From an uncultured Actinomycetes bacterium (GTDB lineage Bacteria > Actinomycetota > Coriobacteriia > Coriobacteriales > Atopobiaceae), in the NCBI GenBank assembly GCA_900314645.1, contig OMWB01000020.1:1-64000 (forward strand): a stretch of 64,000 bases of DNA. Direction: 5' to 3'. Both the position numbers and the translations under genes were made by a program. Numbering within the stretch: position 1 is the first letter of the stretch; every line of letters begins with the position of its first letter. Below the pieces are notes generated by a model. It did not search any database. It was not told the DNA's origin and worked only from the letters and a program-made list of their open reading frames with translations. Positions 8,161 through 54,670 of this stretch are shown here, in pieces.

Positions 8161-9458
8161 GCTTCTTGCCTGTCTACGCGGTAAGGCTCCAGCGTCATGG
8201 CCATACGCTCTGAGGCACGTACCGTTGCCATAAGTCCGCCCTCTTCATATCGCTCGCTGATGACCTGGCACCGCTCGTGCACCATGCGCATGAGCATGCC
8301 CTTCTCGTAGGGAATCAGCACGGTGCACGTGATGTCGCCATCGCTCGCCTCTTGTGCGATACGGTACAGCAGCCCCCGCACACCCATGCCAGAGAGCGCA
8401 GAGATCTGCACCGCATCGGGATACGCCGTCATCAACTCGTGCGTCTGTGCTTCGTCGAGCAGGTCCATCTTGTTGAACACCAAGACCGAGCGCTTTTCGG
8501 ACGCGCCAATGTCCTTCAGCACGTGCCGCACGGCGTCTATCTCTTTGGCAGCATTAGGGTCACTCGCGTCGACTACCAGCAAGATGAGGTCCGCAGCAAC
8601 GACCTCGGCAAGCGTGGACTTGAAGGCTTCCACCAGCGTCGTAGGCAGCTTCTGGATGAAGCCCACCGTGTCCGTGATGGTGATCTTTCGTCCCTCTTCG
8701 AGGTCAAGGGCACGCGTCGTAGGGTCAAGCGTCGCAAAGAGCTCGTCCTTCGCGTATACGTCGGAACCCGTCAGATGGTTGAGCAGCGTTGACTTGCCGG
8801 CGTTCGTGTATCCCACCAAGGCTACACGGTAGACGCCTGCGTCCCAACGTGCCTTCGACTGCACCCCACGACGCTTCTCCAGGGTCTCAAGCTCCTTGCG
8901 AAGCCACGCGATGCGATCCCTGATAAGGCGACGGTCCACCTCAAGCTGGCTTTCACCCTGACCAAAGCGACTGCCGATGCCACCACGCGTCTGCTCTCCG
9001 ACAAGGTGGCTCCACATGCCCCGCAGGCGCGGCAGCAGGTACTGGAGCTGTGCGAGCTGCACCTGCAGGCGGCCCTCGCGCGTCTTTGCGTGATTGCCAA
9101 AGATGTCCAGAATAAGCGCGGTGCGGTCGATGACCTTCCGAGGTTCCTTGACGGCCTTCTCGAGGTTTGACTGCTGCGAGGGCGTAAGCTCGTCGTCAAA
9201 GATGACCACATCCGCATCGAGCGCGTCCACAAGCCGTACGAGTTCCTGCGTCTTGCCTGATCCGATGAACGTGCGAGGCACCGGGGCATCGAGGCGCTGC
9301 GTCATCGTGCCAACCACCTCGGCGCCATCCGTCTCCGCCAGTCGCCCAAGCTCCGCGAGCGACTCCTCAAGCGGCCAAGGAGACCTACCAGTGTCGACAC
9401 CCACCAGAATTGCGCGCTCTGGTTGCGGTGCGGTTGAGAAGGGCTTGAACCTACCCAT
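8157..9458 (-). CDS. hflX: Ribosome-associated GTPase HflX
   Basis: This 433-residue GTPase binds the large ribosomal subunit and, in studied species, splits stalled or stressed 70S ribosomes. It has the HflX-specific N-terminal domain with the Gly-rich RGGIGSRFGQGES segment, a linker helix, and a G domain with the P-loop GYTNAGKSTLL (about residue 215), DTVGFI (G3) and NKMD (G4). Its ATG directly abuts the miaA stop (9459-9461), so it is the downstream gene of a miaB-miaA-hflX unit. miaA-hflX linkage is common in bacteria. Confidence 0.96.
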   Translation of the reverse strand: MGRFKPFSTAPQPERAILVGVDTGRSPWPLEESLAELGRLAETDGAEVVGTMTQRLDAPVPRTFIGSGKTQELVRLVDALDADVVIFDDELTPSQQSNLEKAVKEPRKVIDRTALILDIFGNHAKTREGRLQVQLAQLQYLLPRLRGMWSHLVGEQTRGGIGSRFGQGESQLEVDRRLIRDRIAWLRKELETLEKRRGVQSKARWDAGVYRVALVGYTNAGKSTLLNHLTGSDVYAKDELFATLDPTTRALDLEEGRKITITDTVGFIQKLPTTLVEAFKSTLAEVVAADLILLVVDASDPNAAKEIDAVRHVLKDIGASEKRSVLVFNKMDLLDEAQTHELMTAYPDAVQISALSGMGVRGLLYRIAQEASDGDITCTVLIPYEKGMLMRMVHERCQVISERYEEGGLMATVRASERMAMTLEPYRVDRQEA

Positions 9459-10391
9459 CTAGCATCCTCTCTCGACATCTCGCAGAATCGCCAGCACAGC
9501 CTCGTCCTCGCTCGTCGTGTCATAGTCGAGCCACCGCGTGCGCCCGTCGCGTCGCAGCCATGACAACTGCCGCTTCGCATAGCGACGCGTCCGCGCCTTG
9601 ACCAGCTCGCGCGCCTCCTGCATGGTGATGGTGCCGTCCAGCGCATCAAGCACTTCCTTGTAGCCAATGGCCTGACGCGCGGTCACCGAGTCCCTGAGGC
9701 CTCGGTCGACAAGGCGGACGACCTCGTCAACAAGCCCCGCCTCAAACATAACGTCGACCCGCTCGTCGATGCGTCGGTAGAGACGCGCGCGATCCATCGT
9801 GATGCCCCAAATGGCCGTGCGGTAATGCGGTGCACGTACCCTCAGGTTCGCGTTCTGCTCTGCGTATGAAACGCCCTCGTCGTGCATCTCGAGCGCACGA
9901 ACCACGCGGCGAACGTTGCGTGGGTGAATCAGCTCTGCCGACTTGGGGTCACGGGCGGCGAGCAGGGCATGCAGCGCATCGGCACCTTGCTCCTCAGCGA
10001 TGGCCTCGTAGCGGCTCCGAGCCTCTCCACGGGTCTCGCCCGTGGGAAACTCCATCTCATCAATCACCGCATCCAGGTACAACCCCGTACCACCGCAGAG
10101 GACCGCAGGGACGCCTCGAGCCAGCAAGCCATCGACACAGACCCGAGCGTCACGCTGGAAGAGGCTCACCGAATAGTCTTGCGAGATATCGGCAACGTCT
10201 ACCATGAGGAGCTCAACGCCGGGCGTCGTAGGTAGGGACTTTGCCGTCCCGATGTCCATGCCTCGATATACCTGCATGGCGTCAACGGAGACGATTGAGG
10301 TGTGCAGCTCCGCGGCTACGCGCTCAGCAAGGCTGCTTTTGCCCGAAGCGGTAGGGCCAACGATCGCAACGGCCTCGAGAGGCAACCTCAT
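9459..10391 (-). CDS. miaA: tRNA dimethylallyltransferase MiaA
   Basis: This 310-residue enzyme transfers a dimethylallyl group to N6 of A37 in tRNAs that read codons starting with U. The P-loop GPTASGKSS, the DAMQVYRGMDIGTAK segment and GGTGLYLDA are all typical. I chose ATG 10391, which overlaps the miaB stop as ATGA; an in-frame start 36 bases upstream lies inside miaB and adds residues not seen in the family. MiaB then methylthiolates the product, so the two coupled genes form consecutive steps of ms2i6A synthesis. Confidence 0.97.
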   Translation of the reverse strand: MRLPLEAVAIVGPTASGKSSLAERVAAELHTSIVSVDAMQVYRGMDIGTAKSLPTTPGVELLMVDVADISQDYSVSLFQRDARVCVDGLLARGVPAVLCGGTGLYLDAVIDEMEFPTGETRGEARSRYEAIAEEQGADALHALLAARDPKSAELIHPRNVRRVVRALEMHDEGVSYAEQNANLRVRAPHYRTAIWGITMDRARLYRRIDERVDVMFEAGLVDEVVRLVDRGLRDSVTARQAIGYKEVLDALDGTITMQEARELVKARTRRYAKRQLSWLRRDGRTRWLDYDTTSEDEAVLAILRDVERGC

Positions 10392-15816: not shown

Positions 15817-16914
15817 TTACTCCGACAGGGAGTCAAGGTCTACGCCAATAGGCTCACCCACGGGCTCGTCGTCAAACGCGAGGCCACACGCAGCGCGGAC
15901 CTTGTTGTCAATCTCGTCACGCAAGTCAGGATTGGAGGCAAGGAAGGCCTTCGCGGCCTCACGGCCCTGGCCAAGGCGCTCTGTCTCGTACGTGAACCAA
16001 GCACCCGACTTGTTGACGATGTCGAGGTCAACCGCCATGTCGAGAATGGAGCCCTCCTTTGAGATGCCCGTACCGTACATGATGTCGAACTCTGCCTGCT
16101 TGAACGGGGCGGCCACCTTGTTCTTGACCACCTTCACCCTCACGCGGCTTCCGATAACCTCGGTCCCCTGCTTGATGGAGTCGATGCGGCGAATGTCCAT
16201 ACGCACCGACGAGAAGAACTTGAGGGCGCGGCCACCAGGCGTGGTCTCGGGGTTGCCGAACATGATGCCGATCTTCTCGCGCAGCTGGTTGATGAAGATG
16301 CAGGTGGTCTTGGACTTGGAAAGGGAACCGGCAAGCTTGCGCAAGGCCTGGCTCATAAGGCGAGCCTGAAGGCCAACCGTGGTGTCTCCGATCTCGCCCT
16401 CAATCTCTGCGCGGGGTACCAGCGCCGCGACGGAGTCGATCACCACGACGTCGATGGCGCCCGAGCGCACCAACATGTCGCAGATCTCCAACGCCTGCTC
16501 ACCCGTGTCGGGCTGAGAGATGAGCACCTCGTCGATGTCAACACCGATGCGTGCTGCATAGCCAGGGTCCAGCGCATGCTCTGCGTCAATAAAGGCGACG
16601 ACACCGCCCATGGCCTGGGCCTCTGCGCAAATCTCAAGCGAGAGCGTGGTCTTGCCGGAGGACTCGGGACCGTAAATCTCAATGATGCGGCCACGAGGGA
16701 CGCCGCCAATGCCGAGGGCGACGTCAAGTGCCAACGCGCCGGTGGGGATTGCTTCCACCTCGAGCTCGGGACCGCCATCGCCGAAGCGCATAATGGCACC
16801 CTTACCAAACTTCTTCTCGATGTCCTTGGTGGTTGCGGCGATCATCTCGTCGCGCTCGGCGCCATATGTCTTCTCGTGAATCTCGCGAGATGGGGCCTTG
16901 CCTCGTGCTGCCAT
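15817..16914 (-). CDS. recA: Recombinase RecA
   Basis: This 365-residue RecA carries out strand exchange and activates LexA cleavage. The Walker A motif is GPESSGKTT, Walker B is [11 protein letters not shown], and the DNA-binding loop with [20 protein letters not shown] is intact. About 20 residues (up to [13 protein letters not shown]) precede the usual start and are basic. AGGGAG precedes ATG 16914. A perfect LexA box lies in the promoter spacer, and a helically phased TGCA array lies further upstream. The order cinA-recA-recX is common in naturally competent Gram-positives. Confidence 0.98.
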
Positions 16915-16949
16915 GCTGAACTCCCTCTTTCGTAGTGAACGTGTTCCAT

Positions 16950-16976
16950 CTTATACGAACAGTCGTTCGTGGTCAA
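16950..16976 (-). promoter_or_regulatory. recA promoter with a perfect LexA box in its spacer
   Basis: On the minus strand TTGACC (16976-16971) and TATAAG (16955-16950) form -35/-10 elements about 15 bases apart. The spacer contains CGAACAGTCGTTCG (16956-16969), a perfect CGAAC-N4-GTTCG SOS box. LexA bound there would block RNA polymerase directly. Confidence 0.8.
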
Positions 16977-17004
16977 TGGAATAGTCCGAGAATACCAAGC
17001 GATG

Positions 17005-17053
17005 CTTGCAGCAATCTTGCACACCCCTGCAGCACGCTTGCACATAGCTGCAC
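17005..17053. promoter_or_regulatory. Helically phased TGCA array upstream of recA
   Basis: TGCA occurs at 17007, 17018, 17028, 17039 and 17049, with steps of 11, 10, 11 and 10 bases, that is, once per helical turn on one DNA face. Most copies have the form CTTGCAC or CTGCAG. The array begins about 30 bases upstream of the recA -35 element, where an activator could touch RNA polymerase. A similar array precedes comEA. The binding protein is unknown. Confidence 0.6.
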
Positions 17054-50587: not shown

Positions 50588-51550
50588 ATGCCACAGACCA
50601 CCAGCGGGCTTCTTCCCGCCTACCTCATCGTCGGCGCCGACGACCTCAAGCGCCGTCAGGCAACAACCCGTCTCAAGGGTCGCCTGGACCAGAGCTTCTC
50701 GGCGTTCAACCTTGACGAGCACGTCGCTGCGTCCGACCTCGAGGCGCAAGACATCATCTCTTCCCTCAACACGCTGCCATTGGGAGACGCCTTCCGCCTT
50801 GTCATGATCGAGCGCGCCGACAAGCTTCCCAAGCCCGTCAGTGAGGCCATCATCGTCTACCTCAAAGACCCCAACCCTGCCTGCGTGCTGTGCCTCGTGG
50901 CCGAGAGCCTGCCCAAGAACACGCGAATCTACAAGGCCGTCGCCAAGGTGGGAAACAAGGCAATCGTTGATTGCACGCCTAAGAAGCGGTGGGAGCTTCC
51001 GCCACTCGTGGTGCGGATGGCCCGCGCCTACGGCGTGACCATGGACCAGAACGCCGCGACCGAGCTTGTGAGCAGGGTCGGCGAGTCAACCACCATGTTG
51101 GACACGCAGCTGAAGGTGCTGAGCGAGTATTGCCGCGACGCCGGCGTCATCACCGTCGCGGACGTTGAGCGCCACGTGGTGCGCACGGCCGAGGTCAAGC
51201 CGTGGGACTTCCTCGACGCCGTAAGCCAGCGCGATGCCGCCAAGGCCCTCACGCTCTATCGCCTCATGCAGAACCCCTCGCAGGTGGCGCTCTGTTCGCT
51301 GCTGACGGGTCGCCTGCGCGAGCTCATCTGCGCGAAGGCGCTCGATGCGCGCGGCCAGGGCTCGGCGCTTGCCTCGGAGCTGGGCAAACAGGCGTGGCAG
51401 GTCAAGAACCACCTTGGGTGGTCACGTCGATTTGCTGCCGGCGCCCTTGAGCGCGGACTCATTGCCTGTGCCCAGTGCGAGCGTGCGCTCAAGAGCGGCT
51501 CTGATCCCGACGTGACCTTCACCGAGCTCGTGGTCACCGTCTGTTCGTAG
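50588..51550 (+). CDS. holA: DNA polymerase III subunit delta
   Basis: This 320-residue clamp-loader subunit opens the beta ring. It matches the HolA pattern: an N-terminal AAA+-like domain without a P-loop (LLPAYLIVGADDLKRRQA), KNTRIYKAVAKVG and a C-terminal helical collar (WQVKNHLGWSRRFAAGALERG). I chose ATG 50588, directly after AAGGAGGAG. Its last 17 bases overlap the end of the converging comEC gene. comEC-holA-rpsT proximity is common in Gram-positives. Confidence 0.93.
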   Translation: MPQTTSGLLPAYLIVGADDLKRRQATTRLKGRLDQSFSAFNLDEHVAASDLEAQDIISSLNTLPLGDAFRLVMIERADKLPKPVSEAIIVYLKDPNPACVLCLVAESLPKNTRIYKAVAKVGNKAIVDCTPKKRWELPPLVVRMARAYGVTMDQNAATELVSRVGESTTMLDTQLKVLSEYCRDAGVITVADVERHVVRTAEVKPWDFLDAVSQRDAAKALTLYRLMQNPSQVALCSLLTGRLRELICAKALDARGQGSALASELGKQAWQVKNHLGWSRRFAAGALERGLIACAQCERALKSGSDPDVTFTELVVTVCS

Positions 51551-53885
51551 CCGAACGCACCATCACGCTATCTCTTCCTGGGCGAAGCTCCACGTCGCCC
51601 ACGTCCTTGGTGCAGAGGAACCGTGCCCCCGCGCTGAGTAATGCCTCCACGCATTCCTTGCGAGGATGCCCGTAGGCATTGCCCTCCCCCGCGCTCGCCA
51701 CGGCCACTTCTGGTGCCAACGCCTCCGCCTGCTCTGATGTGAGGGAGACCTCCGAACCATGGTGGCCCACCTTGAGGAAGTCAATGTCTCCCACGTCTCC
51801 TGCGGCGATGACCGCCCCCGTCTCGTCCTGCTCCGCATCGCCCGTGAGGAGCCCACGCAGCTCTCGGCCCCGCCCCGCATAGGCAATCGTCAGCTCCAGC
51901 GAGTCTGGGTTGTCGAGGCCGTCCACGTCTGTGCGTGGCCACACCACTGACAGCGTAAAGCCTCCTACCTGCAGTTGGTTGTGATAGGAGATCTCTTCGC
52001 AGGACGAGCCCGTCAGCTCGTGGACAGCCTCGTCGAGCTCCTCGGGCAGGTTGTCCTCCGCCCCCGCGGCTACAATGACCTCGCCGACCCCCACATGACC
52101 CTCGAGGTCCATCAGGCCGCCGTAATGATCGTCGTGAAGGTGCGTCAGCACCACGGCATCCAGATGCAGCACGTGGTTGCGCGCGAGTGCCTTGGGCAGC
52201 GACCCGTCTGGCGGACCGGCATCCACCAGGATCGCCGACGGGCCGTCCTGTATGAGAATGGCATCTCCTTGCCCGACGTCGAGCACGCACACGCGCGCTG
52301 GCGCCAGAAAGCGCCAATGGGCAACGACGACCACCACCGCAAGCGTGATGCACACGGCAATCCGCTGCACGCTGGCCCGTGATGGCTGGGGCCACCACAC
52401 GAGCACGCCTAGGCCACCCACTATGACGAACGCCCAGAGCGTCGGCGCCCCCGCACTCACGGGTACGGATGCATATGGCACGCGCGCCAGCCCGCGCAAG
52501 ACCACGAGCACCACATTCAGCAGCATGTCACACAGCGCAAATCCCGCATGGCGCACCACTGCAAGCGGACCAACAAGCACGCTCACGAGACCCAGGGCGA
52601 GCGCTGCGGAGAGCGGGGCGCCCACAAGAAGCATGCTGAGCGGCCCTACCAGAGATACACAGGCAAACACGGGACCAACCAACGGAAGGGTTGCCGCCTG
52701 GGCCACGGCCGAGGCGCCGAGCGAGCTCACGCACGCCCGACGTGCTCCGCCCAGACGGATCCGCGTCTCCGCACGAACACCTCGCGGAAGGTACACGGGC
52801 GGCACAAGGGTGTCCGTCAACGCCGACGCATACGAGCCATAGAGGCACAGGGCGATAACGCACACGACGGAGAGCAAAAACCCGAGCTGCCCAGAGAGCC
52901 CCGGATTGACCAGCGTCATCGCCAGCGCTACGAGGCATACCGACGAGGTTCCATCCAGCCTGCGGCCTGCCAGAGTACCTGCGGATGCCACCGCCGACAT
53001 CGCCCACGCCCGTACGGCGGAGGCTGGTGCACCGCACACCGCGACAAAGGCAAGCGTTACCACAAGCTGCGCTGTCATTCGCTGTGCGGGACGCAAGCCG
53101 CTCTGCTGCAACACGTGCGCCAGCAGGGCAGCCACCACAGCGATGTGGCTTCCTGAGACGGCAACCAGGTGCGCCACGCCGCAGGTCGCGAACAACTCGT
53201 CAAGCCCGCGCTCGCGCATCTCGCTACGGTCACCCAGAACGATGCCGGCAAGCACCGCGCGCTCGTCTGAGGACGTGGGACAGATGAGGCGCCTTGCCCC
53301 TTCACGCACCGCCAAGGGCAAAGCCGTCAAGCCTTGGCGCCTTCCCGTGCGTTGCGTTCGCACGATGATGACGCTACCCCAGATCCCTTGCTGACGATTG
53401 GACCTCCCGTAGTCGTCGTCCCCGTTTGCGCGATACCGACCCACGCCGCAGATCATGTCCCCGCGCCGCAATGCCTCTTGCGTGGTGAGCCACACGTCCC
53501 CCGACGAGCAGCCTTTTTGGTATGCCCGAGCGCGGGATCGGTAGCCTGAGGTGGATGGGGAGGCATCCGACAGCGCCTCGAACGTCCACGTGGAGATGGA
53601 GGACGAGCTCAGCTCTGCGGCAAAGCCATGCCCCACCCACAGCGCACAGGCGCTTACCATGAGGGCGGCCACTCCGGCACATACGGCGCAGACCACCGAG
53701 CCCCAAGCTTCCGCCTCATTACGCCGCCATCTCGCCCACACGAGCACGAGCCCCGATACTACGGCCGCAAGGCCCATGAGCGCCACAGAGACGTTGTCAC
53801 GCCCCAGTGCCCACCGCTCGACAAGCAATGCCGAGACCAACGCGTAGAGCGAGACGGGAATGGCTGGCCGCTCCGGAAAGCGCAC
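51534..53885 (-). CDS. comEC: Competence protein ComEC/Rec2, DNA-import channel
   Basis: This protein of about 783 residues forms the inner-membrane channel for DNA uptake. It has N-terminal transmembrane segments, an OB-like extracellular part, the competence domain (EMRERGLDELFATCGVAHLVAVSGSH region, about residues 220-245) and a C-terminal metallo-beta-lactamase-like domain (VLTHLHDDHYGG). The beginning is uncertain. GTG 53885, four bases after the comEA stop, is the best choice; TTG 53900 is an alternative, and the ATG at 53990 lies inside comEA. It is probably translated with comEA. Confidence 0.93.
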   Translation of the reverse strand: MRFPERPAIPVSLYALVSALLVERWALGRDNVSVALMGLAAVVSGLVLVWARWRRNEAEAWGSVVCAVCAGVAALMVSACALWVGHGFAAELSSSSISTWTFEALSDASPSTSGYRSRARAYQKGCSSGDVWLTTQEALRRGDMICGVGRYRANGDDDYGRSNRQQGIWGSVIIVRTQRTGRRQGLTALPLAVREGARRLICPTSSDERAVLAGIVLGDRSEMRERGLDELFATCGVAHLVAVSGSHIAVVAALLAHVLQQSGLRPAQRMTAQLVVTLAFVAVCGAPASAVRAWAMSAVASAGTLAGRRLDGTSSVCLVALAMTLVNPGLSGQLGFLLSVVCVIALCLYGSYASALTDTLVPPVYLPRGVRAETRIRLGGARRACVSSLGASAVAQAATLPLVGPVFACVSLVGPLSMLLVGAPLSAALALGLVSVLVGPLAVVRHAGFALCDMLLNVVLVVLRGLARVPYASVPVSAGAPTLWAFVIVGGLGVLVWWPQPSRASVQRIAVCITLAVVVVVAHWRFLAPARVCVLDVGQGDAILIQDGPSAILVDAGPPDGSLPKALARNHVLHLDAVVLTHLHDDHYGGLMDLEGHVGVGEVIVAAGAEDNLPEELDEAVHELTGSSCEEISYHNQLQVGGFTLSVVWPRTDVDGLDNPDSLELTIAYAGRGRELRGLLTGDAEQDETGAVIAAGDVGDIDFLKVGHHGSEVSLTSEQAEALAPEVAVASAGEGNAYGHPRKECVEALLSAGARFLCTKDVGDVELRPGRDSVMVRSATNRR

Positions 53886-53889
53886 CTCG

Positions 53890-54567
53890 CTAGACGCCAA
53901 TGTACGCCCGCATCCGCTCGTACTTCTTTTCGCCGATGCCCGACACACGCATGATGTCCTCGGGCGCGGTAAACGGCCCTCCCGCCTCACGCTCCTCGAT
54001 GATGGCGGCGGCGGTCGCGGTCCCCACCCCCGGAAGCTCCTCGAGCTCCTCGGCCGTCGCGGTGTTGATGTTGATCACCGCAGATCCATCCACATTCGCC
54101 GACCCGCCAGCACTTGCCGGGACGGCCTCCTCCCCCGCCGCCGGCACATACACCTTCTGGCCGTCGGACAGAGGTGCCGCGAGGTTCACGGTAGTGGTGT
54201 CGGCGTCCTCCGTCAGGCCACCCGCAAGCTCCACGGCCTCGCCCACGCGCGGAGACACGCCGCGCAGCACATACACGCCTGGGTGCTCAACCGCGCCGTC
54301 CACGTGCACGTACACCTCCGTGAGGGCTTCTTCCTCACGTTCGGCGCCCTGCGTCTCGCCTGCGTTTCCGTGTGGCTCTTCTGCCACCTCGGTCTCGGGC
54401 ACGCCCTGCCGAATCACCTCAAACCCACGTTGTGACGCCATACGCGCACCCACGGCAACGCCTGTCAGCGCGAGCGTTCCTACCACCAGCCCGGCCACGG
54501 CTGCCCTGGCCGGGCGTAAGCCCATACGTCGCGCGAACAGCCGCGCTTTCATGGTCAACTGTGCCAT
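53890..54567 (-). CDS. comEA: Competence protein ComEA, DNA receptor
   Basis: This 225-residue protein has one N-terminal transmembrane helix (AAVAGLVVGTLALTGVAVG), a SLBB-like domain (VYVHVDGAVEHPGVYVL) and a C-terminal double helix-hairpin-helix (ININTATAEELEELPGVG ... ERMRAYIGV) that binds DNA outside the membrane and passes it to ComEC. I chose ATG 54567 because GGGAGG is eight bases upstream; earlier in-frame ATGs lie in the leader. That ribosome-binding site is in the 3' arm of a hairpin (54574-54604), and a phased TGCA array lies upstream. Both suggest tight control. Confidence 0.95.
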   Translation of the reverse strand: MAQLTMKARLFARRMGLRPARAAVAGLVVGTLALTGVAVGARMASQRGFEVIRQGVPETEVAEEPHGNAGETQGAEREEEALTEVYVHVDGAVEHPGVYVLRGVSPRVGEAVELAGGLTEDADTTTVNLAAPLSDGQKVYVPAAGEEAVPASAGGSANVDGSAVININTATAEELEELPGVGTATAAAIIEEREAGGPFTAPEDIMRVSGIGEKKYERMRAYIGV

Positions 54568-54573
54568 ACAAAT

Positions 54574-54604
54574 CGCCTCCCACTCCATCGTGGAGCAGGA
54601 GGCG
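54574..54604 (-). promoter_or_regulatory. Hairpin hiding the comEA ribosome-binding site
   Basis: On the minus strand CGCCTCC-TG-CTCC-ACGAT-GGAG-TG-GGAGGCG folds into a 7-bp and a 4-bp helix with a 5-base loop and a 2x2 internal loop. The Shine-Dalgarno GGGAGG is inside the 3' arm, seven bases before the ATG. The stem would block translation until it is opened. Confidence 0.65.
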
Positions 54605-54632
54605 AGAGCGTTGCTTGGAAATCTCAATTCGA

Positions 54633-54670
54633 CTTGCAGCAACCTGCGGGTAGCTGGCAGCAAACTGCAA
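54633..54670. promoter_or_regulatory. Helically phased TGCA-like array upstream of comEA
   Basis: CTTGCAG, CCTGCGG, GCTGGCAG and ACTGCAA have TG at 54635, 54645, 54655 and 54666, steps of 10, 10 and 11 bases. The gene-proximal end is the same 10-mer (CTTGCAGCAA) as in the recA array, in the same orientation to the gene. Confidence 0.55.

Follow-up and report, generated by a model that had tools for sequence, protein, structure and literature searches.

A phased heptamer array upstream of comEA and recA as a candidate operator for DNA uptake in an uncultured Atopobiaceae bacterium

Described competence systems and SARP operators

In Bacillota, competence regulons controlled by ComK or by ComX/SigX switch comEA-comEC, dprA, ssb, recA and pilus genes together. 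The regulon that we predict here for an uncultured Atopobiaceae bacterium has the same gene set, although the types of regulator and operator differ, and a Tad/Flp pilus takes the place of the ComG pilus. Micrococcus luteus belongs to the same phylum (Actinomycetota) and also has a comEA-comEC operon. Transformation in this species is reported to depend on a Flp pilus (PMC4322843), and according to a 2026 study neither its upstream signals nor its regulatory cascade have yet been identified (PMC12849477).

The operators of SARP activators, with direct repeats 11 or 22 bp apart, offer a second point of comparison. The afs box bound by AfsR extends from -40 to -19 and consists of two 11-bp repeats, and the -10 element of afsS is CACTGT (PMC10936776). 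Like such operators, the array that we describe has direct repeats 11 bp (a helical turn) apart, of which the last lies 17 bp before a weak -10 without a good -35 (PMC10936776), and a protein resembling AfsR and EmbR is present in the same genome. By contrast, the array is associated with DNA uptake and not with antibiotics, it has four to five units and its steps alternate between 10 and 11 bp. In a search that reached few subscription papers, we found none that deals with Coriobacteriia competence or with control of competence by a SARP. New relative to the first-pass annotation are the KTGCRAS unit in gene orientation, its fixed 17-bp spacing to the -10 in most promoters, arrays in other families and a candidate regulator.

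Phased arrays upstream of comEA and recA

The window, i.e., the whole stretch of 64,000 nucleotides that was analysed, contains both comEA and recA. The first-pass annotation had reported phased TG(C)CA-like sites before comEA and a 10-mer common to this region and a similar one at recA, in like orientation to the gene. We observed an array at the positions given for comEA, and likewise at recA (Table 1). In gene orientation, the unit of both is KTGCRAS, repeated four times at comEA and five times at recA in steps of 10-11 bp. The shared 10-mer, CTTGCAGCAA, is the reverse complement of the array end TTGCTGCAAG. In the window it is found exactly twice (17005 and 54633); in both cases it forms the gene-proximal end of an array, and both genes are on the minus strand. 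On its own, the 10-mer carries little weight and is not significant: the 3.0-Mb genome has 7 copies, versus 5 of a reversed control.

Table 1. Positions of the array units and of neighbouring genes and elements in the window
Feature	Position	Strand	Remarks
comEA (SLBB and helix-hairpin-helix)	53890..54567	-	start codon at 54567
comEC	51534..53990	-	downstream of comEA
Hairpin enclosing the comEA Shine-Dalgarno	54573..54605	-	directly before the start codon; -27.9 kcal/mol
AATTGAGAT element	54621..54629	-	just 3' of the comEA array; also in tad promoters
comEA array (putative operator), four heptamer units	54632..54670	-	steps 10-11-10; present at comEA in most congeners too
comEA heptamers, gene direction	54670-54632	-	TTGCAGTTTG-CTGCCAGCTAC-CCGCAGGTTG-CTGCAAGT
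recA	15817..16914	-	
recA array (putative operator), five units	17004..17053	-	steps 10-11-10-11
recA heptamers, gene direction	17053-17004	-	GTGCAGCTAT-GTGCAAGCGTG-CTGCAGGGGT-GTGCAAGATTG-CTGCAAGC
TATTCT, predicted -10 of array-driven recA promoter	16989..16994	-	17 bp after last heptamer start
Second recA promoter, TTGACC-17-TAAGAT	16948..16976	-	downstream of array promoter
LexA-type box CGAACGACTGTTCG	16956-16969	-	perfect; in spacer of second recA promoter

The training set of a scoring matrix was restricted to recA and comEA from other genomes, with the genome under study excluded, and the matrix was applied to 220 bp upstream of 45 window genes and to 9000 shuffled upstream regions as a control. 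The recA array ranked first of the 45 with a score of 34.7, which no shuffle reached, and the comEA array ranked second with 17.3, which was reached by 8 of the 9000. The next best window gene scored 12.4 and the median was 2.4, in agreement with the earlier claim that only two upstream regions of the window have the pattern. Taken singly, the comEA array is modest and only moderately unusual, and it is therefore conservation, together with the regulon, that carries the case.

Over the genus, the phasing is far above chance. In the upstream regions of congeners, a TGC-to-TGC distance of 11 was observed 19 times at comEA (1.5 expected) and 14 times at recA (2.2 expected), and a distance of 21 was observed 9 and 12 times, respectively (1.4 and 1.8 expected). 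The arrays of three genomes are weak or different in form, and the unit in these resembles the 11-mer form GCGACCTACC. A strict pattern, KTGCRASN{3,4}KTGCRASN{3,4}KTGC, gave few matches in 19 genomes and none in the genome under study; it was overly strict and was set aside. A GCAGGTARA-like element recurs near the arrays in congeners, and is located upstream of them at recA and comEA and downstream at tad.

Outside the family, we observed 11-bp arrays with a changed heptamer, TTTGGAA or TCTGTAA, in two other families of the order. The comEA array of genome G021 reads TTTGGAttctg-TTTGGAAttcc-TTTGGAAccca-TTTGGAA, and the recA upstream region of the same genome matches this heptamer array at 23 of 28 positions (0 of 400 shuffles). 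In G020, units of the TCTGTAA type precede recA, and a match to this recA-type array (23/28; 0 of 400 shuffles) lies roughly 50 bp before yraN in the yraN-comM-dprA operon. When the dprA and tad stretches of G018, G021, G024, G025 and G029 were scanned for heptamers, nothing convincing emerged. Across families, the architecture of the array is kept while its letters have changed and its genes have not.

The hairpin directly before comEA has counterparts of -21 to -34 kcal/mol, with stems of differing sequence, both in G027 and in the congeners that were read. These energies come from individual folds, and a MAFFT alignment of the hairpin was poor. The hairpin could prevent expression of comEA from transcripts that read through from thiI, or it could be a terminator or a translational switch.

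Array-associated genes and promoter geometry

The first-pass annotation had proposed a shared operator of recA and competence genes, to be checked by a search for the motif before other late competence genes. This search supports the proposal. In the same genome, arrays precede the yraN-comM-dprA operon (held-out score 26.6) and rpsF-ssb (30.6), and neither score was reached by any of 9000 shuffles. The array of the dprA operon is also found in five further genomes. In six congeners, an array is located about 90 bp before cpaB, the first gene of the Tad (Flp) pilus operon cpaB-tadZ-tadA, and two more genomes have a weaker array just upstream of cpaB. The tad site of the genome under study is degenerate: three of its units are good, but the fourth is poor. 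Its score of 7.8 is not significant alone, as 748 of 9000 shuffles reach it. The tadA gene of this genome (positions 9249-10241 of locus L257, contig C11) matches only residues 1-331 of 443, beyond which the frame meets stop codons; it looks truncated in the assembly. A T2SSE locus on contig C9 was rejected as the tad locus, having only a weak TadZ match and no array. Thus, apart from the weak tad site in its own genome, the shared array precedes genes for uptake (pilus, comEA-comEC) as well as genes for processing of DNA (dprA, ssb, recA). The cinA (pncC) gene itself has no array; that of recA sits between cinA and recA.

Some array-associated genes are less well characterized. One encodes a 218-aa protein of unknown family (held-out score 19.9), whose array is clear in the genome under study and in three others and partial in a fourth. 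Another is AbiEi-like, with a held-out score of 24.3, and an AbiEi-like gene of a second genome also has an array. A gene for a SpaA-domain surface protein in a further genome and two additional unknown families (L187; L191 and L181) are also preceded by arrays. The uncharacterised proteins include one of 353 aa and a family of 473 aa or more. Matches at two loci (L007 and L212) were dropped as coding or weak. The search for regulon members was based on patterns and on selected stretches, and hence it is sure to have missed some; comF, for one, was not located.

The arrays have a fixed position relative to a potential -10 element. For each gene, we took the closest strong heptamer upstream, with comEA and tad left out. 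In 25 of 32 arrays, a YANNNT hexamer starts exactly 17 bp after the start of this heptamer, where 0.94 are expected per offset. The stricter TANNNT occurs at this offset 15 times, and no other offset reaches 3. For the afs box, a downstream repeat that starts at -29 and a -10 hexamer near -12 likewise give 17 bp by our arithmetic, and the arrays thus share the spacing known from AfsR and similar SARP activators.

The comEA promoters do not follow this rule (YANNNT at offset 17 in 0 of 12), and by eye the tad promoters also lack the hexamer there. Instead, comEA and tad promoters share AATTGARA at offsets of roughly 10-17 after the array. They form a second promoter class, for which we have no explanation.

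Candidate activator and significance

The best explanation, in our judgement, is that the array serves as operator for a regulon of competence (DNA uptake). One activator would bind as several adjacent protomers to the KTGCRAS heptamers, one helical turn apart and on one face of the DNA. The last protomer would overlap the -35 region, and RNA polymerase would be recruited to the weak -10. The regulon would comprise the Tad/Flp pilus, ComEA-ComEC, ComM-DprA, SSB, RecA and a few lineage-specific genes, and recA would keep a separate LexA-type promoter. The activator would most likely be a large SARP of the STAND-BTAD type whose gene adjoins secA. As a whole, this explanation is likely, with binding, expression and transformation unproven. 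It starts from what the sequences show: the arrays and their phasing, the genes that belong to the regulon, the distance to the -10, the conservation in several families, and the presence and fold of the SARP. That the array activates transcription is an inference made without expression data, and one that we hold to be highly probable.

Because of the spacing of the array, we looked at SARP and OmpR-type proteins as regulators. The genome under study encodes 11 OmpR-type DNA-binding domains: eight in ordinary OmpR-type proteins, two in proteins that join a receiver to a SARP-like part and one in a full SARP. The gene for this full SARP lies directly upstream of secA. The protein has 1021 aa, with an N-terminal STAND/AAA_16-like part (weak matches) and with the DNA-binding domain and BTAD at the C terminus (residues about 774-996). 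BTAD is matched at 2.2e-12 and Trans_reg_C only weakly (0.0053, under its cut-off). The SARP profile matches EmbR and AfsR in the PDB, and the C-terminal 246 residues, as modelled (pLDDT 92), have a fold that matches both, with a TM score of about 0.72-0.78. In AfsR the SARP domain is N-terminal, and the candidate does not meet this placement, since its SARP domain follows the STAND-like part. We regard the domain order as a variant that is not decisive.

Relatives of the large SARP were observed in 16 of 17 congeners, and within the genus they are syntenic with secA. All but three of 30 genomes have a full-length match to the profile (G011, G018 and G026 lack it), with partial cases in G020 and G028; nearly every genome thus has one full SARP, and the protein is conserved over the order. 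Arrays are present in G011, but a large SARP was not found there. In the genome under study the gene adjoins an rRNA operon (a 5S-like sequence), where contigs often end, and an assembly gap in G011 is therefore possible. The recognition-helix region of the SARP differs between genomes with GTGCAAG-type operators and those with GTGCGAC-type operators, a correlation that is here inseparable from phylogeny. The SARP gene has a reverse-oriented array 75 bp before it (positions 193-232 of locus L225, contig C21; score 20.7), which recurs weakly in two congeners. Autoregulation is possible, although the signal is too weak for such a claim. In the absence of binding data, the large SARP beside secA is the best candidate activator, and its assignment as such is an inference that we favour with reasonable, if not strong, assurance.

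The same regulon and operator could instead be served by an OmpR-type response regulator that answers a sensor kinase. OmpR-type regulators also use 11-bp direct repeats, and the two receiver and SARP-like proteins of the genome under study (at C9:92649 and C24:123708) would be examples; G011, in which the large SARP was not found, has one. However, such proteins were not found in five further genomes of the set or in other families, several of which have arrays, and we consider this alternative unlikely.

A second alternative is a DNA-damage regulon. A PafBC-like (WYL) activator might control recA and repair genes and include com genes by happenstance. The products of recA, ssb and comM-dprA do act on DNA, and mycobacterial PafBC promoters also place their site next to a TANNNT -10. 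However, comEA-comEC and the Tad pilus serve uptake and not repair, and the site is a repeated 11-bp array of another sequence rather than the single PafBC motif. Moreover, recA already has its own LexA-type promoter for damage, a layout also found in congeners. The LexA box CGAAC-N4-GTTCG is present at recA and was not seen in the sequence upstream of comEA; therefore, SOS does not appear to explain the shared array. We judge a damage regulon very improbable. Given its second promoter, recA would answer both competence and SOS. Chance repeats or an effect of base composition could account for a comEA array that is weak alone and for a 10-mer that is not over-represented in the genome, but can hardly be reconciled with the conservation of the arrays, their specificity for competence operons, the exact 17-bp spacing and the family-specific heptamers common to two promoters of one genome.

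For the competence operator with a SARP as its activator, the analysis gives a named operator, a predicted regulon that includes the pilus, and a single candidate activator whose sensor part is NTPase-like, all in uncultured gut bacteria. Coriobacteriales are not known to be transformable, and our results suggest that gut bacteria of the Atopobiaceae take up DNA; they perhaps also offer a route to transforming cultured relatives in the laboratory. That the programme yields transformable cells is inferred without transformation data and seems fairly likely. With somewhat more hesitation, we lean towards the view that natural competence in Coriobacteriales is under a STAND-NTPase SARP as master activator, where the operator heptamer drifts by family and the phased architecture stays. 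If this is true, this branch of Actinomycetota has a competence regulator that can be named and put to the test.
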